Shown here one piece after another: positions 50,018-62,107 of a DNA stretch of 64,000 nucleotides. The first letter of the stretch is position 1; every line of letters starts with the position of its first letter. The stretch spans positions 124,001 to 188,000 of the forward strand of contig JAJFHV010000013.1 in NCBI GenBank assembly GCA_021775415.1, in the 5' to 3' direction. Below the pieces are notes generated by a model. It was not told the origin of the DNA and ran no database searches. It saw only the letters and a program-made list of their open reading frames with translations. Both the position numbers and the translations under genes were made by a program. Source of the stretch: Hyphomicrobiales bacterium. GTDB lineage: Bacteria > Pseudomonadota > Alphaproteobacteria > Rhizobiales > Rhizobiaceae.

Positions 50018-50067
50018 CCTTATGCCCTGTCCTGCTTGTCGGATGGTGGCGCAAATTGGAGAAAGCC

Positions 50068-51252
50068 ATGACCGGCCCATTGGATGGAATACGCGTCCTC
50101 GATCTGACCTCGATGATATCGGGTCCAACGGCAACGATGATGCTGGCGGACCAGGGTGCTGATGTCATCAAAGTAGAAAACCCCAATGGCGGCGATTATA
50201 CTCGGGCTGTATCAACCGCCCGCAATGGATTTTCCGCTTCGTTTGTCAACAATAACCGCAACAAGCGCTCGATTACACTCAATTTGAAGGATCCCAGAGG
50301 CGTGGAAACGCTGAAACGTCTTGCCAAAAATGCAGATGTGCTGGTTCAAAATTTCAGGCCCGGTGTGGTCGACCGAATTGGTGTTGGTGAAACAGATATT
50401 CGCGCCGTGGCACCTTCAATTATATACGTCTCGATCAGCGGGTTTGGCGATACCGGGCCTTACGCCCAAAAGCCAGTGTATGATCCGCTCGTCCAGGCGC
50501 TTTCCGGTCTCACAACAGTTCAGGCGGGCTCCGATGAGGAGCGACCGCGACTTGTGCGCACTATTTTGCCCGACAAGCTGACTGGTTATGCTGCGGCACA
50601 GGCAATCACTGCAGCACTGGTCGCGCGGTTTCGCACCGGTGAAGGGCAGCATATTAAATTATCAATGCTGGATACAATTATCTCGTTCCTGTGGGGCTCC
50701 GACATGGGGGCTCACACTTTCGTGGGCGATGAATTGCGAACTGAAACTGCCCAGAGCTTTATTGATCTGATTTATGAAACCCAGGATGGATATATCAGTG
50801 TAGCGGTCCAGTCAGACAAGCAATGGGTTGGTCTGTGTCAGGCATTTGACCGGCCGGATTTAATTTCTGACCCAAGGTTCAACAGTGTGGAGTTGAGGCA
50901 CAAAAACATCGATGAACGGCTTGTGACCACCCAAGAGTTGCTCGGATCTGAAACCTCGAATGAATGTCTCAGGCGACTGGAAGAACAAGACGTGCCCTGC
51001 GCGCCGGTTCTAACGCGCCGTGAGGTGATACATCATCCGCAGATTGTCTCAAGCGGGATTATTACTGAAATTGAACACCCGAAAGCAGGACTGTTGCGTC
51101 AGGCAAGACATGCACCGCAGTACTCCCAGACTGCAACGGAACAGCGTTATCCTGCACCGGCTTTAGGGCAGGACACTGGCGAGATTTTGAGTGAGGCCGG
51201 CTTCTCGAAGTCAGAGATAGAGGCATTGGAGACGGACGGGGTGACAACCTGA
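50068..51252 (+). CDS. CaiB/BaiF family III CoA-transferase
   Basis: Moves CoA between carboxylic acids. N-terminal MTGPLDGIRVLDLTSMISGP with the nucleotide-binding VIKVENPNGGDYTR; catalytic aspartate in GPYAQKPVYDPLVQALSGL; C-terminal VLTRREVIHHPQIVSSG. The start is ATG 50068 with GGAG seven bases before it. The next gene is convergent 2 bp away. The substrate is unknown; the family acts on carnitine, oxalate, succinate, mesaconate and other acids. Its place beside the catabolic run suggests a late step in that pathway, but it is on the other strand. Confidence 0.88.
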   Translation: MTGPLDGIRVLDLTSMISGPTATMMLADQGADVIKVENPNGGDYTRAVSTARNGFSASFVNNNRNKRSITLNLKDPRGVETLKRLAKNADVLVQNFRPGVVDRIGVGETDIRAVAPSIIYVSISGFGDTGPYAQKPVYDPLVQALSGLTTVQAGSDEERPRLVRTILPDKLTGYAAAQAITAALVARFRTGEGQHIKLSMLDTIISFLWGSDMGAHTFVGDELRTETAQSFIDLIYETQDGYISVAVQSDKQWVGLCQAFDRPDLISDPRFNSVELRHKNIDERLVTTQELLGSETSNECLRRLEEQDVPCAPVLTRREVIHHPQIVSSGIITEIEHPKAGLLRQARHAPQYSQTATEQRYPAPALGQDTGEILSEAGFSKSEIEALETDGVTT

Positions 51253-51254
51253 CT

Positions 51255-52289
51255 TTAATCGCCGCTCAGCAATTCATTAATGTAGCTGTCCAGGGTTTTT
51301 TCAAATTCCGGTTCGTTCCCGGGGCTTGCAACACAGTGCCCCCAAGGTGAATCAAACGGTCTGAAATCCACATTTGGCATGTAGCTGGCTTCAATCTCAT
51401 TGTCAGCTGGTGGGAAATACAGATCGTCGGTGCAGGGCATCAGGATTGCGCGGGCTTTGATTGCTGCGAGCGCTTTCTCAATGTTGCCATCATACATTGG
51501 ATTGGCACTGATATCGCCAAGCTGCCACGTTTTGAGTTTGGCAAGCAAATTGTTCGCATCCCAATTGTCAGCATGATCCTCCGCCCAATCATCAAGCAGG
51601 GCATCAGGGTTTTCGTACCCCAGTTTTTTGTACAGCCCTTCGCGGTAGAATGTCTGTGAGAATGCCCACCCGGCATAGACCCGGCCAAATGCGCCAAGCC
51701 CCCGGACCGGTGGTGAAGTGTAATCACCACCTTTGAAATCGCCATCCGCGCAAAGCGCTGCCTTTACCCCTTCAAGAAACACGTAATTGTGGGGTGATGT
51801 TTTGGCTGATGCGCAGAACGGCAGGATGGCATCTACCATGTCTGCGTATTGTGCGGCCCACTGGTATGATTGACAACCGGCCATCGACCACCCGGCAACC
51901 AACGCAATGCGTTCAACGCCAAGTTCATGCGTCAGTAGCTGATGCTGGCAGGCGATGTTGTCCCACAACGTAATGTCTGGAAAACGGGCACCGTCAAACG
52001 GTGCAGGTGTGTTGCTCGGTGAGGACGATAAGCCATTGCCGAATAGATTGACCGAAACAATGAAGTGTTTGGTTGGGTCAATTGCCCGGCCGATGCCAAA
52101 GAACCCTTCGTTACGGCTATGATTGCCGGTGTAGAAAGTTGGCAATACAACTACATTGTTCCTGGCTGCATTAAGTGAACCATAGGTTTTGTAGGCAAGC
52201 TGGGCGGAGGGCAAAACAATCCCGGATTGCAGTGCCACCTCGCCCAACTCATAAATTCGATAGTCCTTGGTCAAACCCGGACCTTTCAA
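51255..52289 (-). CDS. MetX-like alpha/beta hydrolase (homoserine O-acetyltransferase family)
   Basis: A 344-residue protein of the MetX fold. Nucleophile in LVAGWSMAGCQSYQWA (consensus GWSMGG), Asp in MPCTDDLYFPP and His in SPWGHCVASPG. MetX proper uses GGSMGGMQ, so this is likely a hydrolase or acyltransferase for a different substrate. It is the last gene of the minus-strand run; its ATG follows the stop of the ligase gene with no spacer, showing tight coupling. Confidence 0.75.
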   Translation of the reverse strand: MKGPGLTKDYRIYELGEVALQSGIVLPSAQLAYKTYGSLNAARNNVVVLPTFYTGNHSRNEGFFGIGRAIDPTKHFIVSVNLFGNGLSSSPSNTPAPFDGARFPDITLWDNIACQHQLLTHELGVERIALVAGWSMAGCQSYQWAAQYADMVDAILPFCASAKTSPHNYVFLEGVKAALCADGDFKGGDYTSPPVRGLGAFGRVYAGWAFSQTFYREGLYKKLGYENPDALLDDWAEDHADNWDANNLLAKLKTWQLGDISANPMYDGNIEKALAAIKARAILMPCTDDLYFPPADNEIEASYMPNVDFRPFDSPWGHCVASPGNEPEFEKTLDSYINELLSGD

Positions 52290-53705
52290 TCAGTAGAGAC
52301 GGATGTACTCTTTGACTTCCCAATCCGTAACGGCCTGATGGTAGCGCTCCCACTCGTCGTTTTTGTATTCGAGGTAGGAGTTCATCATCACCGGTCCCAT
52401 GACAGTTTCTGCAAGTTTGTCGCCACGCAAAGCTTCCATTGCCTGCAACAGATTGCGTGGTAGGCGCCGGATGCCAAGCTTCTTGGCTTCTTCTTTTGTC
52501 ATTTGGTACAGATCAATATCAGTAGGATTACCGGGTTCAATTTTCTCGCTCATACCCTCAAGCGCAGCTGACAAAGTCATCGCCAAACCGAGATAGACAT
52601 TCATCGTCATGTCCGCTGCACGGTTTTCAATGCAGTATCGGCTTTGCGGTAGGCGGAACTGGGCGGAACGGTTGTTGAAGCCATAGGTGATATTGGTTGG
52701 TGCCCAGGTAACCGTACCGCCCTCAAATCCACCAACGCGCGGAACAAGTCCATTGTAGGAGTTTACCGTTGGACAGGTAATCGCGGTGATCGCTTCAGCA
52801 TGTTTCATCAGGCCGCCGACTGCATAACGTGATTCAGCGGACCAGCCGTCTTTGTCTTTGAAGACGTTTTCGCCCGGATTATCGAGCTTCTGCAAAGAAA
52901 AGTTGATATGAGCGCCGGAGCGCCAGTCACCAATTGTCGGCTTCGGCATGAAGGTAATAAACATGTCATGCTGTTTGGCGATTTCCTTCAACAGTATACG
53001 CAGGAAGACTAGGCGGTCTGCCATTTCCAGCAGATTGGTATAGTGGAAATCCAGCTCGAACTGCGAATACCCACCTTCGGCCACAACGTCGTGGATGTTC
53101 CATCCGAGATCTTCGAGGATATCGATCATGTCTTTGAGGAACGGCATCGAATCGATGGAGTACTCAACGTCATACCCAAATGCCTGACGGCGCGGTCTGA
53201 CGCCTTCCATTGGATCGTCATCAAATGCTTTTTCCGGCTGGCCGTCCTCATCATAGCGCATGGCAATGAATTCTGGCTCGATACCTGCGTAACCCTCGAA
53301 TCCATCGTCTGCGGCTGATTGCATGGCGCGCTTGAGCGCCTGACGCGGGCAGACATTGTATGGCGCGTCTTCCCAGAACAGATCCGCGAATATGATCGCC
53401 ATCGTTGTGTCCCATGGACAAATATACACCGCATCAAGATCCGGAATCATGATTTGATCCGAATCTGCCGGCGACAATTCCGGAACAAAGGATATGGAGT
53501 GAACCGCGAATTGCGGGCCCTTGCCAAGGCAAAGCGGTTCGAAATCGCTCATCGGAACCGGCTTGGTTTTTGGAATGCCGTGTAGGTCAATCCAGCTCGA
53601 AAGCACGTATTTGACACCTGCTTTTTCGAGCCGTTCCTTTACTTCAGCAATTTTTGGCCGATTGCGTTCAATCGCATCCTGCATTTTCTCGTAATAAATT
53701 TTCAT
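52290..53705 (-). CDS. Glutamine-synthetase-family gamma-glutamyl ligase (type III-like)
   Basis: A 471-residue ATP-dependent ligase of the GS family that would join an amine to glutamate, possibly as gamma-glutamylamide. Seen: the N-terminal beta-grasp (YVLSSWIDLHGIPKTKP), metal-binding YAGIEPEFIAMR and EGGYSQFELDF, ATP-linked AHINFSL, and the arginine-rich YGFNNRSAQFRLP. It lacks the adenylylation region of GlnA. GS-like ligases open degradation of ethanolamine, isopropylamine and aniline in other bacteria. Together with a Rieske oxygenase here, amine degradation is a reasonable inference. Confidence 0.82.
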   Translation of the reverse strand: MKIYYEKMQDAIERNRPKIAEVKERLEKAGVKYVLSSWIDLHGIPKTKPVPMSDFEPLCLGKGPQFAVHSISFVPELSPADSDQIMIPDLDAVYICPWDTTMAIIFADLFWEDAPYNVCPRQALKRAMQSAADDGFEGYAGIEPEFIAMRYDEDGQPEKAFDDDPMEGVRPRRQAFGYDVEYSIDSMPFLKDMIDILEDLGWNIHDVVAEGGYSQFELDFHYTNLLEMADRLVFLRILLKEIAKQHDMFITFMPKPTIGDWRSGAHINFSLQKLDNPGENVFKDKDGWSAESRYAVGGLMKHAEAITAITCPTVNSYNGLVPRVGGFEGGTVTWAPTNITYGFNNRSAQFRLPQSRYCIENRAADMTMNVYLGLAMTLSAALEGMSEKIEPGNPTDIDLYQMTKEEAKKLGIRRLPRNLLQAMEALRGDKLAETVMGPVMMNSYLEYKNDEWERYHQAVTDWEVKEYIRLY

Positions 53706-53777
53706 TCCAGTGACCTCTTCGTTCGATAGAATTGAACCCCAGACAATACTCCGGAGCTCATGATTTTGCTGTGATTA

Positions 53778-54182
53778 TTAGCCCGGCACAAAGTCGTTAG
53801 GGTCAATTCCGGGAACATGCGTCAGACCAGCAAGCTGTTTCCAATTATGCGGGTAGGCGGCATAGAAAATCACACAACGTTCATCTGCTTCGTAGGAAAT
53901 GTGATTGTCCTTGGGTACGAACAGAACGTCACCCGAGTTGCAAATGTAGGTCTCGCCATCGCAAACCAGCCGGAATGTACCCTCAAGACAATAGATGATC
54001 TCATCACAAGTCAGATCCCACGGCACTTTGATATTCTTAAGTACATTGACCCCGCCACACATGGTTTCGCTCATTCCGCTGGTGACCATTGGCTTGATAT
54101 AGGTGTCGCCATCACCTTCGCCGATTTTGTCATAGCGGTCCTTGACGAGGTCCCATTTCATAAGCTGTGGTTTATTGCCCAT
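53778..54182 (-). CDS. EutQ-like cupin domain protein
   Basis: A 134-residue single cupin. The pattern DEIIYCLEGTFRLVCDGE, then GDVLFVPKDNHISY and FYAAYPHNWKQL resembles the C-terminal domain of EutQ, an ethanolamine-utilisation protein. The role is unknown; it may bind or isomerise a small amine or aldehyde, or be a metal-dependent sensor. It sits between the ligase and VOC genes on the same strand (11 bp to VOC, 72 bp to the ligase). Confidence 0.75.
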   Translation of the reverse strand: MGNKPQLMKWDLVKDRYDKIGEGDGDTYIKPMVTSGMSETMCGGVNVLKNIKVPWDLTCDEIIYCLEGTFRLVCDGETYICNSGDVLFVPKDNHISYEADERCVIFYAAYPHNWKQLAGLTHVPGIDPNDFVPG

Positions 54183-54193
54183 AGTAATTATCC

Positions 54194-54604
54194 TTAGGTT
54201 TTGTGTTTGAGTATGGATTCGTTCAGTTCAACTTTGTAGCCGTCCGGGTCTTCGCAAAATGCGATGACGCGAGTGCCGTGTTTCATTGGTCCTGCTGGCC
54301 GGGTAATTTTGATACCCTGGGCTGCAAGGTCTTCGCAGGCTTTGTAGACATCCGGCGTTTCGATGCAGAGATGGCCCCAGCCATTCCCCTTGTCGTAAGT
54401 TTCCGTGTCGTCCCAATTGTTGGTCAATTCCAGTGTTGGGAACTCAGCCTCCGGCCCGTAACCGATGAACGTGTTTGTGAACCGACCCTCTTCATAGTCG
54501 GTGCGTCGCAGCACCTGCATGCCGAGAATGCTGCAGTAAAAATTCAACGATGCTTCGAGGTCGAGAACCCTGATCATCGTGTGTGCCAGTCGATATTCCG
54601 TCAT
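54194..54604 (-). CDS. VOC-family protein, glyoxalase-I-like
   Basis: A 136-residue metal-dependent enzyme closely patterned on lactoylglutathione lyase: YRLAHTMIRVLDLEASL, LELTNNWDD, GWGHLCIETPD and AFCEDPDGYKVELNES supply the metal-ligand set His, Glu, His, Glu. True GloA isomerises the methylglyoxal-glutathione adduct. Inside a catabolic run it may instead act on an aldehyde or adduct formed by the oxygenase. It overlaps the Rieske gene by 4 bp. Confidence 0.85.
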   Translation of the reverse strand: MTEYRLAHTMIRVLDLEASLNFYCSILGMQVLRRTDYEEGRFTNTFIGYGPEAEFPTLELTNNWDDTETYDKGNGWGHLCIETPDVYKACEDLAAQGIKITRPAGPMKHGTRVIAFCEDPDGYKVELNESILKHKT

Positions 54605-55722
54605 GTTTTCATCTCTCGTTTTTGACCCGTCACGCTTCCGGCAATAAGTTCTTGAAATGCCCGCACGCTGTTTTCCCAGTGGGGGGAAAGAACGCCGCCG
54701 CTTTCGGCAACAGGAGAAGCCCGGCCCAGCTGCAGACGTTCCACCATTTCATGGTCTTCCTTGTGCACGTCCCACCAAAGCGATTTCAGCCCTTCGATTT
54801 CCTCATTGCTCAACACCTGACCTTCAGTGGTATAGAGCGCACGTTTTTGGATCATGCGGTCCGGCCCAAGCGGAATGTTCAGATAAACTCCCAATTGATC
54901 CGGAAAATACCGTCCAACAATGAAATTTGGAAACAGCGTCAAATAGCGGGAACTGACGGCGAGGCTGCCGCCGGTGCCGACTTCCTCTTTAAGATCAACA
55001 GCACTTCCCAGACATCTTCCGTCCACAATTGTATAGTGATCTGTTAGAGGCTGATCAGTCGTGGAAGAGTGCACAAATTGTACGTGATAGGGCTCAATGA
55101 AGTTCTCCATGATGAACTTCCAGTTTGTCGCGATTTCACCAAAATCAAGAATGCCAATCGGCTGAACTTTATCAAAATCAATGCCATCCAGGCGCTTGAT
55201 CAGGGGTGCGGCATACTCCTCAAAGGGTTCAGCATTGCCATCCAGATTGACAAACACCCAGTCGTGCCAAACGTGAACGCGAATGGGCACGAGGCTGTTT
55301 TTGGTTCGATCAAAACCCTCGGGTTCATGTTTGTCTGTCCCGCCAAAGTGAGGTGAAGCACGCAAGGTTCCGTCAAGATCATAGGCCCATGCGTGATAGG
55401 GGCAGCGGATCAGCTTGCCGACATTTTTGGGTTCATCGACGAGAGTAAGGCAGCGGTGCCTGCACACATTGTGAAAGGCAGCAATTTCGCCCCGCTGGTT
55501 TTTGATAAGGAGCACCGGCTTTCCGGCAATGGTAGTTGGAACTGAATCACCCGGCTCGGCAAGTTCATGAGCAAACCCGGCGCATACCCAGTTTTGGGCC
55601 AGTACGGTCTCGCATTCCGCCTTCCAGAAATTTTCACCCGTATAGGCGACCGCCGGTAATCCATGGGCCGGTGTGTGGTTTTCCATGAACGGTGACAACA
55701 TCGAATCTACTGAGTTACCCAT
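54601..55722 (-). CDS. Rieske non-heme iron oxygenase, quaternary-amine/aromatic type
   Basis: Terminal oxygenase (about 373 residues). Rieske cluster ligands: CRHRCL (Cys, His) and RCPYHAW (Cys, His). Mononuclear iron facial triad in NWKFIMENFIEPYHVQFVHS, with bridging Glu before PYH, as in carnitine and glycine-betaine monooxygenases, then an acidic residue further on. The substrate may be a quaternary amine or a cyclic compound. ATG 55722 has GGGGATGA about 8 bases upstream; 55731 is possible. No ferredoxin or reductase gene is in the window. Confidence 0.88.
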   Translation of the reverse strand: MGNSVDSMLSPFMENHTPAHGLPAVAYTGENFWKAECETVLAQNWVCAGFAHELAEPGDSVPTTIAGKPVLLIKNQRGEIAAFHNVCRHRCLTLVDEPKNVGKLIRCPYHAWAYDLDGTLRASPHFGGTDKHEPEGFDRTKNSLVPIRVHVWHDWVFVNLDGNAEPFEEYAAPLIKRLDGIDFDKVQPIGILDFGEIATNWKFIMENFIEPYHVQFVHSSTTDQPLTDHYTIVDGRCLGSAVDLKEEVGTGGSLAVSSRYLTLFPNFIVGRYFPDQLGVYLNIPLGPDRMIQKRALYTTEGQVLSNEEIEGLKSLWWDVHKEDHEMVERLQLGRASPVAESGGVLSPHWENSVRAFQELIAGSVTGQKREMKT

Positions 55723-55727
55723 TGCAA

Positions 55728-56276
55728 TCATCCCCAATTGCGTTTCAGCAAGAACTGGTTCTTGTAGTTTTTCAGGCCATTCATGATTTCAACGCTCAAG
55801 ACATCGTCCCGGCTATGGATTTCCTTTTCCATGAAATCGAGAAACCCTTCATGGTCATCGCTTACGACTTCTGCCAACAGGTCATAGCGACCCGACACCC
55901 ACAAAATATAGACAATGTCAGGATTGCTGGAGAGGCGCTCGGCCACGTCCTTTGGGGTAAAGCCCGCAGATACCTTGATGCCCAGCATGGCGTCGGTCTT
56001 GTATTCCACCGCGACCGGGTCGGCGATGGCTACAATTTGCAGCATGCCAGCGCCCTTCATGCTGGCAACGCGATTTCGGATTGTACCCTCCGAGACGCTT
56101 AGTTCCTGGGCAATTTCTGAAAACGCCGTGCGGCCGTCGCGCTGCAAAATGGCAATGATGGATCGGTTAAGCTTGTCGTCCGGAGACGACTTGTCCGGTT
56201 GCCGTGTTAGACGCTCGCCAAATTTGCGATCATCAATATCAACAACCCTGCCTTGAGCGCGCGTGCCACGTGCCAT
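55728..56276 (-). CDS. Lrp/AsnC-family regulator of the catabolic cluster
   Basis: Lrp-type regulator: HTH at residues ~40-75 (AFSEIAQELSVSEGTIRNRVASM) and the RAM/AsnC effector domain (LGIKVSAGFTPKDVAERL, and YDLLAEVVSDDHEGF). Start ATG 56276 has AAGGGAAG; longer N-terminal extensions lack a ribosome site. It is first in the minus-strand run and divergent from the second Rieske gene (197 bp between starts), so it can reach both transcription units. An amino acid or amine effector is likely by family habit. Confidence 0.88.
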   Translation of the reverse strand: MARGTRAQGRVVDIDDRKFGERLTRQPDKSSPDDKLNRSIIAILQRDGRTAFSEIAQELSVSEGTIRNRVASMKGAGMLQIVAIADPVAVEYKTDAMLGIKVSAGFTPKDVAERLSSNPDIVYILWVSGRYDLLAEVVSDDHEGFLDFMEKEIHSRDDVLSVEIMNGLKNYKNQFLLKRNWG

Positions 56277-56473
56277 GTGCTCTTCCCTTGCGCGGTCCCA
56301 ACCGCAAATTCGGAACTTATCTGCGAATTTCTGACAAATCAATCCCTATAATACTGAATTCGTAGGTATTTAAGATTGACTTACGATTTAAGTAGATGAA
56401 AATGAATGCACTTGCTGATTGCGCAGTTGCTTCTGCACGCCAACAGAGGGTTTGACATAAAGGGATTGATCGA

Positions 56474-57850
56474 ATGAGCTCTAATACTCCCGACATCGTG
56501 ACGCCTGCATCCGCAGGAAACTTCCGCGGTTATCACCAGTCTCAGCCGGCGGATATCGACGAAGAGATCGCCCGGGTTGGGTCGGGAACATCAGGCGGCG
56601 AATATTTGCGTTGTTTCTGGCATCCGGTTTTTATCACCAGCGAGTTGGGCGACCTTCCCCAGGCGATCAAGATACTCGGCGAGGAATTGGTGTTGTTTCG
56701 CTACTCAGGTGACAAACTTGGGCTGGTTCACAAATATTGTCCGCACCGGCGTGCATCTCTTGAATATGGCCGCTGTGAAGATCGCGGCATCCGCTGCTGC
56801 TACCACGGCTGGTTGTTTGCGCCTGATGGTGAAATTCTTGAAACCCCCGGTGAAGCTCCCGACGCGGAGCCTGCAAAGGTGGTGCGAGAGCGCACCAGAC
56901 TGGGTGCTTATCCGGTGATTGAATACAAGGGTCTGATTTTTGCCTATATGGGACCTCCTGACCAGATGCCGGAATTTCCAGTCTACGATGTGCTTGAAAT
57001 TGAGGATATGACCAACCGTCCGTACAAGGCACCATATACCTGCAACTGGATACAGGTACTCGACGCGATTATGGACCCGGTCCACACGACATTTTTGCAT
57101 TCCCAAAACAGCCATCCGCAATTTTCCGAAGGCATGTCTGAAATAGGTGAATTGAAGTTTTACGAACGCAATGAAAATCATTTTCTGGGTTCTTCAACAA
57201 GACGCGTTGATGACAACGCCTGGGTTCGTATGAACGAATTGATCTTGCCTAATTTTACGCAAGCCGGCTCTGCCTTTGCAGCAGACGGAACACAATCTCG
57301 CTACTTCGGCCGCTCCTGTTTTACCCGCTGGGTAGTCCCGGTAGATGATGAAAATTCGATTGCCTATGCCTGGGCAAACTTCGGTGAGCGCGGGGATCCG
57401 CATCAGTATAATACCAAGGAAGGGTGCGAACTAATTGAACAGGGCGAGGTGCTGGATCGCTCGCCAGAAGAAAAACAACGCTATCCGGCAGACTCTGAAG
57501 CGGTTGAGGGCATGGGTTCCATATCTACACACAAGGGTGAAAACCTTATGCCGACGGATCGCGGCATTTCTCTGTATCGCCGACGCATACGCCAGCAAAT
57601 CAAGGATTTGAAACAGGGTGAAAGGCCACCTCAACCCTGGAGGCACGGCGAAAATTCTGTTCGAACCTATGGTCAGGACACAGTCCTCAATTTGTCACCC
57701 AAAGACGGTGAAAATGACCGTAAGTATCTTGCCGAAATTGGCGCGGCGGTGATGGACATGCAATTTCAGTATGAAGAACAAGGCAATGAAGCACGCGATG
57801 CTGCAATAATTGAGAAGCTGAAAGACATCGAAACAAACGGCATAAGCTGA
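56474..57850 (+). CDS. Rieske oxygenase, phthalate-dioxygenase type
   Basis: A 458-residue Rieske oxygenase of a second class. Cluster ligands in KYCPHRRASLEYG and RCCYHGWLF; iron site in WIQVLDAIMDPVHTTFLHS, with His and His plus a bridging Asp. Longer than the first Rieske protein by a C-terminal tail of about 100 residues. The sequence resembles phthalate or other PDO-type dioxygenases. It opens the plus-strand unit and is divergent from the Lrp gene. No reductase gene is present. Confidence 0.87.
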   Translation: MSSNTPDIVTPASAGNFRGYHQSQPADIDEEIARVGSGTSGGEYLRCFWHPVFITSELGDLPQAIKILGEELVLFRYSGDKLGLVHKYCPHRRASLEYGRCEDRGIRCCYHGWLFAPDGEILETPGEAPDAEPAKVVRERTRLGAYPVIEYKGLIFAYMGPPDQMPEFPVYDVLEIEDMTNRPYKAPYTCNWIQVLDAIMDPVHTTFLHSQNSHPQFSEGMSEIGELKFYERNENHFLGSSTRRVDDNAWVRMNELILPNFTQAGSAFAADGTQSRYFGRSCFTRWVVPVDDENSIAYAWANFGERGDPHQYNTKEGCELIEQGEVLDRSPEEKQRYPADSEAVEGMGSISTHKGENLMPTDRGISLYRRRIRQQIKDLKQGERPPQPWRHGENSVRTYGQDTVLNLSPKDGENDRKYLAEIGAAVMDMQFQYEEQGNEARDAAIIEKLKDIETNGIS

Positions 57851-57886
57851 TCATCGCTTTTTGCATAACTTCCAAGGATCGACACA

Positions 57887-58903
57887 ATGGTCGTTAAGGT
57901 TCACGTCAAAAACAACCGATGGGCTGAGGGCTCGTTTCCAAATACCCCGGAAGGTGAAGAGGTCTTCACCATTACGCGAGAGCGGTTCGATTCAACTCTG
58001 TCGGAATTTCACGGCATGGCCGCGAAACTGGACCCGTTTATCGACTGGGACACCGATAATTTTTCCAGTTCGATGAAAGATGCAGAGGTTTTGTTGACCT
58101 GGAATCTGCCGACGGAAAACCTCGGTAAAGTCGCACCGAATTTGAAATGGATCCATTGCATCGGGGCAGGTGTTGAACACATGTTGCCGCTGGACTGGTT
58201 GCCGCAGGGCGTAACCTTGACCAACAACAAGGGGGTTCACGCTGCCAAGGCTGGCGAGTTTGGCCTGATGAGTGTCCTGATGCTGCACTCGCACATACCG
58301 CAAATTGTCACCAACCAGCGTAACAAAAACTATGATTCACTTTACGCCTCGCCAATTGTCGGTAAGACACTGGTGGTGATTGGCACGGGCAGTCTTGGCG
58401 GGTCGGCGGCAAAAGAAGTTCAAAAACTGGGTGTTCATGTAATTGGTGTAAACCGTCATGGGCGTAGCGTTGAGGGGTGCAATGAAGTCGTGACTATCGA
58501 CAAGCTGGACGACGTGCTCCCGCGTGCAGATTATCTGTTCGTTGCAACACCGGATACACCGGAAACACGCGGTCTGCTGGATCGCCGCCGGCTGGATTTA
58601 TTAAAACCTGCCGCCGGTATCATCAACATCGGCCGCGAAGCGGTTATGGATTATGATGCGCTTTGCGACAAGCTTGAAGAAGGCAGTTTGGCCAGCGCCA
58701 TTCTGGATGTGTTTGATCCCGAACCAATAGAAACTGGTTCCAGGCTTTGGCATACGCCGAACCTTATTATCACGCCGCATGTTTCCGCCGATGATGGCGA
58801 TGCCTATGTGCCGATGACACTTGGCCTGTTTTTCCGCAACATGGAGCTTTTTTTGGCCGGAAAGCCACTGCTCAATCCCATTCAACCGGAGCTTGGATAC
58901 TGA
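57887..58903 (+). CDS. D-2-hydroxyacid dehydrogenase family protein
   Basis: NAD(P)-dependent reductase or dehydrogenase. Nucleotide fold VVIGTGSLGGSAAKEVQKLG, catalytic-site arginine region INIGREAVMDY, Glu in VFDPEPIETGS and His in ITPHVSADD. It lies 36 bp after the second Rieske gene, so the two are co-transcribed; a strong AAGGA precedes ATG 57887. Glyoxylate or hydroxypyruvate reductase-like activity is possible. With the upstream VOC protein it could handle a 2-oxo acid from the pathway. Confidence 0.85.
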   Translation: MVVKVHVKNNRWAEGSFPNTPEGEEVFTITRERFDSTLSEFHGMAAKLDPFIDWDTDNFSSSMKDAEVLLTWNLPTENLGKVAPNLKWIHCIGAGVEHMLPLDWLPQGVTLTNNKGVHAAKAGEFGLMSVLMLHSHIPQIVTNQRNKNYDSLYASPIVGKTLVVIGTGSLGGSAAKEVQKLGVHVIGVNRHGRSVEGCNEVVTIDKLDDVLPRADYLFVATPDTPETRGLLDRRRLDLLKPAAGIINIGREAVMDYDALCDKLEEGSLASAILDVFDPEPIETGSRLWHTPNLIITPHVSADDGDAYVPMTLGLFFRNMELFLAGKPLLNPIQPELGY

Positions 58904-58953
58904 GCCCAAAAGAGAACAATCATCTAAATTTGCCGCTGAATATAGAATTGGAT

Positions 58954-58965
58954 TGTCAATTGACA
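58954..58965. promoter_or_regulatory. 12-bp palindrome upstream of the methanethiol oxidase gene
   Basis: TGTCAATTGACA is a perfect palindrome, 65 bp before the mtoX start; its right half TTGACA could be a -35 element. A dimeric regulator bound here could control mtoX. No good -10 hexamer at 16-18 bp was seen, so the promoter assignment is open. Confidence 0.35.
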
Positions 58966-59029
58966 GATGGTTGACGTATGATTTTTCCGAAAGGCCCCTG
59001 AAGCGGGCTTACAAAGCGGAGGAAACATA

Positions 59030-60394
59030 ATGACATCAGGCAATGGAAAAACATGCTGCGGCCCAGGCTACGCATCACCGGCAGAGGCAATGCAGGCCAA
59101 TAGGGAAAAACTCCTGTACACGGTAGCGCTATACACAGGTACCGGAATCGAAAAGCCTGATTACCTCGCAACCGTTGATGTTGATCCTGATAGCCCCACT
59201 TTTTCGCAGGTCGTTGCCCGTACTGAAATGCCGCAAATTGGTGATGAACTGCATCACTCTGGCTGGAACGCTTGTTCCTCCTGCAACAACGATGCGACCA
59301 AGGAGCGTAAATATCTGTTGATGCCCGGTGTGCGCACTTCGAATATCAATGTGATTGATACCTCGGATGCGCGCAATCCAAAAATCCATAAAGTGGTCTC
59401 GGGTGATGACATCAAGGCCAAGACCAATTTGTCCGCCCCCCACACGGTTCATTGTCTGGGTGCAGATATTATCATTTCAATGCTGGGTGATGCCGACGGC
59501 AATGCGCCGGGTGGTTTTCTGCATCTGGACGAGAACTTCGAAATTGTCGGGCGCTGGGAAAACGACATTACCGGAATGAACTATAATTATGATTTCTGGT
59601 ACCAGCCGCGCCATAATATGATGGTGTCATCTGAATGGGCAGCACCCAATACGTTCATGCCGGGTTTTGATCTGGAGGATGTAGCGGCGGATAAATACGG
59701 CCATTCCATCCATTTTTGGGACTTCAAAGGCAAGAAGATCGAAAAATCCGTTGACCTGGGAGGCGAAGGTCTAATCCCGCTTGAAGTTCGTTTCCATCAC
59801 AACCCGGATTCTACCCATGGCTTTGTGGCAGCCACATTGTCATCAAATGTGTTTCACTGGCACAAAAACGGTAGTGGCGAAGTAGAAATCGAAAAAGTCA
59901 TCGATATTCCAACCATCGATGTCGAAGGTTTTCCGGTGCCCATGCCGTCTCTGATTACGGACATCCTGATTTCGATGGATGACAAGTATTTGTACTTCTC
60001 CAACTGGCTGCATGGCGATTTGCGCCAGTATGACATCTCTGATCCGTCCAATCCGGTGATGACCGGCCAGGTCTGGATAGGTGGCCTGCTTGGCAAGGCT
60101 CCGGAGGTCAACGGTGTTACCATTCATGGAGCGCCCCAGATGATCCAGCTGTCACTGGACGGGAAGCGCCTCTACGTCACCACCTCGTTGTTCTCGACCT
60201 GGGACAATCAGTTCTACCCGGAGATGATGGATGGCGGAGCGCACATGTTCCTGGTTGATTGCGACACCGAGAACGGAGGGATGACAATCAATCCGGACTT
60301 TATTGTTGATTTCAAGAACGAACCAAATGGACCAGCCCGTTGTCACGAAATGCGCTATCCTGGCGGTGATGTAACTTCAGATATCTGGCTTTAG
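59030..60394 (+). CDS. mtoX: Methanethiol oxidase (SELENBP1/SBP56 family)
   Basis: Oxidises methanethiol to formaldehyde, sulfide and hydrogen peroxide. The N-terminus CCGPGYASPAEAM and the motifs DYLATVDVDPDSP, LHHSGWNACSSCNND and HTVHCLG match human SELENBP1, as does the C-terminal SDIWL; 454 residues is the right size for a seven-bladed propeller. No signal peptide is present, so it is probably cytoplasmic, whereas characterised Hyphomicrobium MtoX is exported. No SCO/SenC copper chaperone or MauG-like gene is adjacent. GGAGG precedes ATG 59030. Methanethiol could come from DMSP demethylation or methionine. Confidence 0.88.
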   Translation: MTSGNGKTCCGPGYASPAEAMQANREKLLYTVALYTGTGIEKPDYLATVDVDPDSPTFSQVVARTEMPQIGDELHHSGWNACSSCNNDATKERKYLLMPGVRTSNINVIDTSDARNPKIHKVVSGDDIKAKTNLSAPHTVHCLGADIIISMLGDADGNAPGGFLHLDENFEIVGRWENDITGMNYNYDFWYQPRHNMMVSSEWAAPNTFMPGFDLEDVAADKYGHSIHFWDFKGKKIEKSVDLGGEGLIPLEVRFHHNPDSTHGFVAATLSSNVFHWHKNGSGEVEIEKVIDIPTIDVEGFPVPMPSLITDILISMDDKYLYFSNWLHGDLRQYDISDPSNPVMTGQVWIGGLLGKAPEVNGVTIHGAPQMIQLSLDGKRLYVTTSLFSTWDNQFYPEMMDGGAHMFLVDCDTENGGMTINPDFIVDFKNEPNGPARCHEMRYPGGDVTSDIWL

Positions 60395-60473: not shown

Positions 60474-60557
60474 GCGGCAATTTAATTAACCGCACTGATC
60501 ATCAATCCGTTCAACCCCAGCTACACATTTTGTTGGTTGACATCGTAGTAGATATAT

Positions 60558-60573
60558 ATAACAAATATGTTAT
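60558..60573. promoter_or_regulatory. Inverted repeat at the start of the ArsR-like gene, possible operator
   Basis: ATAACA, AATA, TGTTAT: perfect 6-bp arms ending at the proposed ATG 60572. A TTGACA lies at 60537-60542. ArsR-family regulators often repress themselves from such dyads; here it would overlap the start codon. Confidence 0.4.
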
Positions 60574-60940
60574 GGAAACATTAGGTTATATAAATACACA
60601 GCCAAATCTGGATGCCATCTTTGCGGCGTTGGCAGATCCAACGCGCCGCTCAATCCTGTCTCGACTTGCCGAGGGTGAGGCATCCGTAAATGAAATTGCA
60701 GCGCCCTTTGAAATGAGCCAGCCGGCGGTTTCAAGGCACTTGAAAGTGTTGGAGCGTGCGGGACTGATTGAGCGCGAAATTGACGAACAACGCCGCCCTG
60801 CTCGTCTGAAGGCCGAAAAAATGGCTGCTGCAGTCAGCTGGCTCGAGGAATTCAGGGTTTTTTGGGGGGCAAGCTTTGACCAGCTGGATGGGGTTCTTTT
60901 GCAGATGAAACAAGACGTGAACCAAGGAAACAAATCATGA
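60572..60940 (+). CDS. ArsR-family winged-helix regulator
   Basis: A 122-residue regulator. HTH LAEGEASVNEIAAPFEMSQPAVSRHLKVLERAGLI in the ArsR pattern; no metal-binding cysteine pair ELCVCDL is seen, so it is probably a non-metal type. ATG 60572 begins METLGY; a TTG 42 bp upstream gives a longer, less likely form. It overlaps the AHSA1-domain gene by 4 bp, the common ArsR-AHSA1 pairing. Confidence 0.87.
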   Translation: METLGYINTQPNLDAIFAALADPTRRSILSRLAEGEASVNEIAAPFEMSQPAVSRHLKVLERAGLIEREIDEQRRPARLKAEKMAAAVSWLEEFRVFWGASFDQLDGVLLQMKQDVNQGNKS

Positions 60941-61443
60941 GCGAATTGCCGGAATATGTATTGGACCGCGTTTTCAACGCCCCGCGCGAACTGGTTTGGC
61001 GGGCCTGGACGGATCCCGAACTACTGTCGCGTTGGTACGGTCCAGGAGTGGAAACGATTATCCATGAATTTGATTTGCGACCCGGTGGAATGTGGCTCAA
61101 TGAAATGAAAATGGGTGAGAATTCCATGCTCAGCAAGGTCGTTTTCAAAGAGGTCACACCCCCAGAATTGCTTGTCTGGCATCATCACTCGTCCACCGAT
61201 TCAAATTGGGAAACGGTTTCGAATCCCAAAATGCCGGACTGGCCGAAGATTCTCCTGACGACTGTGGCGTTTGAGGAAGAAGGCACCAAGACAAAAGTGC
61301 GCCTGACCTGGGTGCCTTTCGAAGCAAGCGAAGACGAGATTGCTTGTTTTGCTGGTGCCGTTGGCAACATGGGCAAAGGATGGGAAGGTGGTTACGCTGT
61401 TATCGATCAAATACTCTCTGAATTGCAGGCACAAAACGGCTAA
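60937..61443 (+). CDS. AHSA1/SRPBCC-domain protein
   Basis: A 168-residue START-like (CalC/AHSA1) fold with a hydrophobic ligand cavity: YVLDRVFNAPRELVWRAWTDPELLSRWYGP and RPGGMWLNEMKMG. The ATG overlaps the ArsR stop (ATGA), so the two are coupled. ArsR-AHSA1 pairs are widespread and often linked to stress or small-molecule sensing; the ligand is unknown. Confidence 0.87.
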   Translation: MSELPEYVLDRVFNAPRELVWRAWTDPELLSRWYGPGVETIIHEFDLRPGGMWLNEMKMGENSMLSKVVFKEVTPPELLVWHHHSSTDSNWETVSNPKMPDWPKILLTTVAFEEEGTKTKVRLTWVPFEASEDEIACFAGAVGNMGKGWEGGYAVIDQILSELQAQNG

Positions 61444-61478
61444 GTTGAAAATTACTGATTTGAACAGGGAGCTTTCTA

Positions 61479-61931
61479 ATGGTTGAACTGCGGATGGACT
61501 ATGCCAAGATCGCACCAGCAGGGCTTAAGGCGATGTTGGCGCCCAATGCCTATCTCAATGACTGTTCCATCGATCAGGGATTGCGACGACTGGTTGAACT
61601 GCGCGTTTCACAGATCAATAATTGCACATACTGCATATGGCTTCATGCAAAGCAGGCAAGGGATGTGGGTGAGAGTGATGAGAGGGTTTCCGCTGTCGAG
61701 AACTGGCGTGAAGCGGGTCATTTGTTTACAGAGCAGGAGCATGCGGTATTCAACTGGACTGAAGCAGTTACCCATATTACCGATGGCTTCCCGGCAGATC
61801 CACTTTTTGACGAGTTAAGAGAGCATATGGATGACCGGCAAGTTGTTGACCTCACTGTGATCGCGGCCAGTATGAACGCCATGAACCGGCTGGCTATCAG
61901 TTTCCGGCATGAGGCACCAGGCGAGAATTAA
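61479..61931 (+). CDS. Carboxymuconolactone-decarboxylase/AhpD-family protein
   Basis: A 150-residue alkylhydroperoxidase-like protein. The redox motif CTYCIWLHAKQAR (CxxC...H) is intact, so it may reduce peroxides through disulfide exchange, in the way of AhpD. Shine-Dalgarno AGGGAG precedes ATG 61479. It lies 36 bp after the AHSA1 gene in the same direction and is probably in one operon. A weak terminator (CTGG-TTG-CCAG then a run of T) follows at about 61934-61958. Confidence 0.85.
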   Translation: MVELRMDYAKIAPAGLKAMLAPNAYLNDCSIDQGLRRLVELRVSQINNCTYCIWLHAKQARDVGESDERVSAVENWREAGHLFTEQEHAVFNWTEAVTHITDGFPADPLFDELREHMDDRQVVDLTVIAASMNAMNRLAISFRHEAPGEN

Positions 61932-62030: not shown

Positions 62031-62107
62031 TGGCGCACCCGACAGGATTCGAACCTGTGACCTCTGCCTTCGGAGGGCAGCACTCTATCCAGCTGAGCTA
62101 CGGGTGC
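62031..62107 (-). tRNA. tRNA-Arg (CCG)
   Basis: Reverse strand begins GCACCCGTAGCTCAGCTGG and ends CGGGTGCGCCA with CCA encoded; acceptor stem GCACCCG/CGGGTGC is perfect. The anticodon loop CTCCGAA between CTGCC and GGCAG gives CCG. T-loop GGTTCGAATCC is standard. Length 77. Confidence 0.96.

Follow-up and report, generated by a model that had tools for sequence, protein, structure and literature searches.

Aniline- and 1-naphthylamine-degradation routes pair a glutamine synthetase (GS)-like ligase with a Rieske dioxygenase, and homarine is N-methylpyridinium-2-carboxylate. A homarine operon, homABCDER, composed of five enzymes and a regulator and occurring in Rhodobacterales and SAR11, is said to have been described by Ferrer-Gonzalez et al. 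in 2026 in Nat Microbiol. The window analysed here is a stretch of 64,000 nucleotides from a Hyphomicrobiales bacterium (contig JAJFHV010000013.1), of which positions 51255-58903 hold eight intact open reading frames (ORFs); the positions and families that an earlier note on this DNA had given for them were confirmed by the ORFs and by profile matches. The minus strand carries an Lrp/AsnC-family regulator (Lrp), a first Rieske oxygenase (RO1), a glyoxalase-I-type VOC protein, an EutQ-like small cupin, a GS-like ligase (GS in the locus descriptions below) and a MetX-like hydrolase, and the plus strand carries a second Rieske oxygenase (RO2) and a D-2-hydroxyacid dehydrogenase (DHDH). We propose, with a probability of about 0.58, that the minus-strand operon degrades an N-methylated betaine, most likely homarine, and that it is probably the published hom operon. 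RO2 and DHDH form a second, separable unit.

The minus-strand unit is likened to the hom operon by description and not by sequence: it also comprises five enzymes and a regulator and also occurs in Rhodobacterales and SAR11. None of the matches listed in the literature on homarine describes these genes, the hom operon paper itself lying outside that coverage. The aniline and 1-naphthylamine routes resemble the window in uniting both enzyme classes in one pathway, but the window ligase lacks residues that bind glutamate, RO1 is more like a different Rieske group, and the cluster adds a VOC protein, a cupin and a MetX-like hydrolase.

Further points of comparison come from single enzymes. PMC7948447 names Glu124, Glu179, Gly231, His235, Arg288 and Arg327 as the glutamate residues of GmaS (gamma-glutamylmethylamide synthetase); Asp177 is assigned there to deprotonating the amine and Arg312 to phosphoryl transfer. 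PMC7948474 and PMC10952381 describe the group V Rieske enzymes (CntA, GbcA, Stc2) as using quaternary-ammonium substrates and as having a bridging Glu205 with Tyr or Phe at position 203 in clade Va, a CxxC pair being present in some members. Ruegeria pomeroyi DSS-3 has been reported to consume homarine.

Two separable Rieske units on a shared ligase-hydrolase core

Loci bearing the GS-like gene were collected by a contig scan with an alignment of eight GS-family proteins, the best 80 of 339 loci being used. With three plasmid loci and 14 from further genomes, these make a set of 97, which still holds duplicates (L025 and L091 are apparently one genome, and the GS of L023 is identical to that of L024) and in which some gene absences are contig ends. 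Genes were counted by tblastn with identity floors of 50% (GS, RO2, cupin and DHDH), 48% (RO1), 45% (Lrp) and 40% (MetX and VOC). Among the minus-strand genes, MetX was found in 90 loci, RO1 in 76, VOC in 75, cupin in 73 and Lrp in 46; for the plus strand, the counts were 48 (RO2) and 44 (DHDH). Bacteria with the gene set include SAR11, Ruegeria, Leisingera, Roseovarius, Hyphomicrobiales and three gammaproteobacterial metagenome-assembled genomes. The commonest order, -DHDH -RO2 +RO1 +VOC +cupin +GS +MetX, is found in 30 of the 97 loci (the eight printed examples are all SAR11), the order RO1-VOC-cupin-GS-MetX-Lrp, a succession that would suit the name homABCDER, in seven and -Lrp RO1-VOC-cupin-GS-MetX in 11; the window cluster is the union of parts found in these orders.

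Because the 97 loci had been picked by GS, RO1 and RO2 were also searched alone, as a selection-free check, in 72,556 plasmids. RO1 (E<=1e-80) matched a single plasmid and RO2 (E<=1e-120) two, and together these are the same three records that contain GS (E<=1e-100). The cluster is real and conserved; synteny, by which the earlier note had proposed to check its idea, is seen in the recurrence of the gene set across the 97 loci.

The two oxygenases do not always travel together. Presence was scored at 50% identity or more in 33 whole genomes that we chose among the locus-bearing ones, completeness being known for 11 of them; RO1 occurs in 24 and RO2 in 17, so that 14 genomes have RO1 only, seven RO2 only, ten both and two neither. 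Weaker matches, scored as absent, are RO2-like at 42-44% identity in G490-G492 and RO1-like at 35-38% in G078, G097 and G134. Across the 97 loci, VOC and cupin mostly accompany RO1, and DHDH accompanies RO2. On plasmid CP081100, RO2 lies about 15 kb from GS and a different Lrp gene adjoins the RO2-DHDH pair; in addition, two Lrp genes are present in three loci that have RO2 but not RO1. Since RO1, VOC and cupin vary apart from RO2 and DHDH, and since another Lrp adjoins RO2-DHDH in CP081100, RO1 and RO2 belong to two units that share one GS and MetX core. Consequently, the single linear route of the earlier note, which needed both Rieske enzymes, does not hold: an eight-gene pathway of this kind is ruled out by the separate occurrence of RO1 and RO2, and the other Lrp beside RO2-DHDH in CP081100 also leaves it unsupported. 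On the GS tree, the presence of RO1 and that of RO2 each need at least six changes; a replacement of RO1 by RO2 along this tree was considered and had no statistical support (paired sign test, median p 1).

Two loci from 1.4-Mb genomes (L045 and L046) contain a GS-MetX pair (55-56% and 43-44% identity, respectively), near an ammonium transporter, glnT and glxBCD-type genes, in an arrangement resembling the methylamine region described for SAR11. One of these genomes (G130) was searched and had neither Rieske gene.

Substrate sites of the ligase, RO1 and the hydrolase

The window ligase matches the GS catalytic domain (Gln-synt_C, 305 bits) and stays below the cut-off of all five NCBIfam GS models listed. 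It scores 359.6 bits with TIGR03105 (GmaS; cut-off 469.6) and 308.7 bits with TIGR00653 (GlnA; cut-off 429.15), and FAVHS replaces FDGSS at the ammonium-site Asp. In a tree whose outgroup consists of seven gmaS/glnT-type and GlnA rows with long branches, the 46 ligase-family rows all fall on one side of a branch with support 100/99. By its sequence, the family stands apart from both standard GS and GmaS as a clade of its own, and the earlier note was right in setting it apart from an ordinary glutamine synthetase.

The nearest solved structure is a glutamate-methylamine ligase. Residues were mapped via 9qur (another glutamate-methylamine ligase, and not the GmaS of PMC7948447), a paralogue alignment and residue spacing. 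On this mapping, the GmaS glutamate residues correspond, in the order given above, to Glu145, Glu210, Arg262, His266, Gly319 and Arg362, and Arg346 occupies the Arg312 site, the ATP and phosphoryl residues being kept. Unlike in GmaS, key residues are replaced, Arg288 by Gly319, Gly231 by Arg262 and Asp177 by Val208; each of these three replacements, and also Trp261 next to Arg262, is shared by 98% or more of 97 sequences. ATP catalysis thus seems to be retained, with altered glutamate and amine sites, and the acid substrate is probably not plain glutamate. Ligation to glutamate, as supposed in the earlier note, is therefore doubtful. The structure model of the ligase is poor (pLDDT 58.5).

For RO1, the nearest solved sequence is that of the carnitine monooxygenase CntA, over residues 9-235 (the Rieske half). 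RO1 has both group V and Va marks, with a bridging Glu215 and with Phe213 at the site of CntA Tyr203. When its model was compared with the PDB by Foldseek, CntA took ranks 1-13 by E-value and stachydrine demethylase ranks 14 and 16-18; as the model is only moderate (pLDDT 67.5), this fold match is support and not proof. We propose that RO1 may act on a quaternary N-compound in a group V-like manner. These features, and the betaine transporters of some relatives (see below), favour the guess of the earlier note that the substrate is a quaternary or cyclic N-compound. For RO2, the resemblance is to the phthalate-dioxygenase group. No reductase gene was found among the ten window genes searched (50056-60394).

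The MetX-like hydrolase passes the PRK07581 model (439 bits, cut-off 332) and does not reach that of the homoserine O-acetyltransferase MetX (TIGR01392, 148.8 bits, cut-off 500). Its likely triad, by motif, is formed by Ser in GWSM (133-136), Asp in DLYF (289-292) and His in GHC (317-319). Relatives on plasmids outside the cluster are mostly distant, 20 of 23 records being below 60% identity; three of these 20 regions were viewed, two having amidase or formamidase genes nearby and the third urease-accessory and branched-chain transport genes. The amidase genes near two of the three weakly suggest a C-N bond hydrolase, and the hydrolase in the proposal of the earlier note may suit such chemistry. 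Genes for an ANTAR-domain regulator and a substrate-binding protein are close by in all three regions (L169-L171), and cytosine permease and amidase genes in two; the regions are possible amide-use clusters. The VOC protein keeps the four metal-ligand positions, which we take to be those of E. coli GloA.

A proposed betaine route and its alternatives

In the proposed mechanism, RO1 would oxidise a quaternary N-compound next to the charged nitrogen, leading to ring opening, and the cupin and the VOC protein would rearrange the resulting oxo-aldehyde. The GS-like enzyme would use ATP to activate a carboxylate, probably not that of free glutamate, and the MetX-like hydrolase would cleave the intermediate, whether activated or C-N bonded. 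The resulting N-methylated amino compound would pass through the N-methylglutamate pathway to glutamate. RO2-DHDH may be a second front end or a side branch on the shared GS-MetX core, for a related substrate or a further oxidation, and Lrp is taken to control the operon. All these steps are inferred, and the place of the ATP-dependent one is the weakest part.

Three features point to an N-methylated betaine, namely the class of RO1, betaine transporters found in part of the relatives, and the neighbouring genes of N-methylglutamate type. A BCCT gene lies between GS and MetX in 4 of the 97 loci, an orthologous ProU-type ProX gene inside the cluster or at most 2.5 kb away likewise in 4; in 11 SAR11 loci, a permease of ProU type lies at a distance of 2.8-6.0 kb. 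A gene passing TIGR03105 (gmaS/glnT-type) is found within 6 kb of GS in 6 of 34 genomes and is adjoined by glxBCD-type genes in five of these six; for SAR11, Sun et al. (2011) regard glxBCD as a putative N-methylglutamate synthase and glnT as a putative GMAS. Homarine use has been linked to N-methylglutamate dehydrogenase (Mgd) in a citing sentence of PMC13390433, and SoxD, a marker of this enzyme or of sarcosine oxidase, is present here in all 34 genomes. In the class sample, 150 of 385 genomes have it, among them 8 of the 9 that bear GS.

Several observations weigh against homarine degradation. As homarine lacks a free amine, it does not explain why a GS-like ligase should be required. Unlike some group V members, RO1 is devoid of the CxxC pair (Pro216 and Val219 stand there); it is only 19-25% identical over the fold matches and scores 127 with the GbcA model, far below the cut-off of 670, and by TM-score its model is as close to terephthalate dioxygenase (up to 0.68) as to CntA (up to 0.66). 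Two of the 33 genomes have GS with neither oxygenase. Betaine-type transporters (BCCT, ProU) occur in a minority of relatives; for most of the 97 loci the searches made here showed no transporter, nor was one recognised among the ten window genes searched. The commonest nearby transporter is NMT1/TauT-type (20 of 97 loci, ten times between GS and MetX), whose nearest models, all with scores below cut-off, are sulfonate, taurine and nitrate carriers. A nearby TIGR03105 gene is limited to the six genomes mentioned, and SoxD and TIGR03105 genes are common and are alone no proof of an N-methylglutamate route.

Another betaine is also possible because some SAR11 copies lie near butyrobetaine- or carnitine-type genes. 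The same chemistry acting on a trigonelline-, proline-betaine-, butyrobetaine- or taurobetaine-like substrate is the alternative that we consider unlikely but worth keeping in view, as the group V features and the betaine transporters do not single out homarine. Some SAR11 loci (L108, L113, L114 and L117) have gamma-butyrobetaine-dioxygenase-like (below cut-off), 3-hydroxyacyl-CoA-dehydrogenase-type or BKACE genes together with a ProU-type permease; the annotation around the Leisingera copy includes genes for carnitine 3-dehydrogenase and of BKACE type, and arginase-family and 5-guanidino-2-oxopentanoate decarboxylase genes lie near two plasmid copies. The pathways for these other betaines are not known to include a GS-like enzyme, and the gmaS/glxBCD-type neighbours point instead, with the Mgd role reported in the sentence cited above, to an N-monomethyl product. 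The route of the earlier note, in which an amine is gamma-glutamylated by the GS-like ligase, oxygenated by the Rieske enzymes and released by the MetX-like hydrolase, with reduction of a 2-oxoacid, appears doubtful. It would agree with the ATP and phosphoryl residues kept by the ligase, with its nearest solved structure, with the joint use of both enzyme classes in the aniline and 1-naphthylamine routes and with the amidase genes near two of the three MetX relatives viewed, but the residues replaced in nearly all sequences are those that in GmaS serve glutamate (Arg288, Gly231) and amine deprotonation (Asp177), and RO1 and RO2 are not jointly required. On the whole, the conserved cluster, the non-standard ligase and the N-compound of that proposal are supported, and its linear two-Rieske route and its glutamate ligation are not.

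That unrelated catabolic genes simply share this region, or that a normal glutamine synthetase happens to lie next to them, is very improbable. Module content does differ between loci, and none of 11 other genomes of the same genus, several of them incomplete, matches GS at E<=1e-80; against this, the gene set is common to distant bacteria, plasmid-borne RO1 and RO2 were found, under the strict limits used, only in GS-bearing records, and the GS family is a separate clade. Returning to the betaine operon that we favour, we tentatively consider one extension of it: the GS-fold ligase might activate a non-glutamate carboxylate, possibly that of a pyridinium or betaine acid bound through Trp261 and Arg262, and with its dedicated MetX-like hydrolase form a fixed core into which RO1-VOC-cupin or RO2-DHDH would be plugged for different marine methylated N-heterocycles.

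Gene layout, distribution and genomic site

The six minus-strand genes are packed in an operon-like manner, with gaps of at most 72 b; the starts given by the ORF tool imply an overlap of RO1 with Lrp of 10 b and with VOC of 4 b, and MetX abuts GS. RO2 and DHDH diverge from this Lrp-led operon across 131 b of intergenic space (56343-56473).

Table. Genes of the cluster, with window coordinates, strand and supporting evidence
Gene product	Position	Strand	Evidence
MetX-like alpha/beta hydrolase, PRK07581 family, core gene	51255..52289	-	profile match; in 90/97 GS loci
GS-fold ATP-dependent ligase, separate clade by sequence	52290..53705	-	W261/R262, G319 and V208 replace GmaS/GS substrate residues
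EutQ-like small cupin, mostly with RO1	53778..54182	-	profile match, synteny
Glyoxalase-I-type VOC protein	54194..54604	-	TIGR00068 141.8 bits, cut-off 120
RO1, Rieske oxygenase alpha subunit, group V (quaternary ammonium)-like	54601..55737	-	Rieske + Ring_hydroxyl_A; Glu215, Phe213
Lrp/AsnC-family regulator, first gene of the minus-strand operon	55728..56342	-	profile match; 46/97 loci
RO2, PDO/LigXa-type Rieske oxygenase, separable second unit	56474..57850	+	Rieske + LigXa_C
D-2-hydroxyacid dehydrogenase (DHDH), occurs with RO2	57887..58903	+	profile match

The gene that follows at 59030-60394 encodes an SBP56-family protein (Pfam SBP56, 700 bits). The earlier note had called it mtoX, a name that it does not bear out, as it scores 155.8 bits with the methanethiol oxidase model NF052453 (cut-off 650). 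That note had left open whether this gene and the adjacent CoA transferase belong to the cluster; both were rejected as members, tblastn finding the CoA transferase (50% identity) and the SBP56 gene (60% identity) in 0 of the 97 GS loci, with one below-threshold SBP56 match of 41% in L052. Further downstream (60530-61931) lie, one after another, genes labelled by eye, from their translations, as an ArsR-type regulator, an SRPBCC protein and a carboxymuconolactone-decarboxylase-like protein.

The distribution of GS is patchy. An orthologue (64-81% identity) is present in 6 of 100 other genomes drawn as relatives of the window's genome (3.46 Mb); at E<=1e-80, a further one of the 100, G061, yields nothing but a paralogue of 38% identity. 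At E<=1e-150, 9 of the 385 class genomes have GS, one of them being that of the window, as do 18 of 54 genomes in a Ruegeria-type genus and 14 of 397 in the SAR11 family.

A tRNA-Arg(CCG) gene (62031-62107) is found close to the cluster. A polA match was obtained in ten genomes of the same genus and four regions were fetched (L162-L165), one of which (L162) stops just past tRNA-Arg and is too short to tell. The other three keep the order polA, next gene, tRNA-Arg, and none of the cluster genes was found in the roughly 15-18 kb past tRNA-Arg; L163 has one 34%-identical match to the gene at 61479-61931. Pieces of the tRNA-Arg gene of at least 12 bases had no second copy within the window, and G+C is even (0.48-0.55), so that mobility of the cluster at tRNA-Arg is only suggested. 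The DNA past tRNA-Arg may be an insertion hot spot without a visible repeat.

The system was probably already published in 2026, and the points of interest here are the unusual ligase pocket and the separable second Rieske unit. Because the Rieske units are separable, RO1 and RO2 should be scored separately when the use of homarine or betaines is predicted from gene content. If our reading is true, it poses the question of what a GS fold ligates once its glutamate-binding residues are gone, and the window would carry a route from a phytoplankton betaine to glutamate that is common to some SAR11 and Ruegeria.

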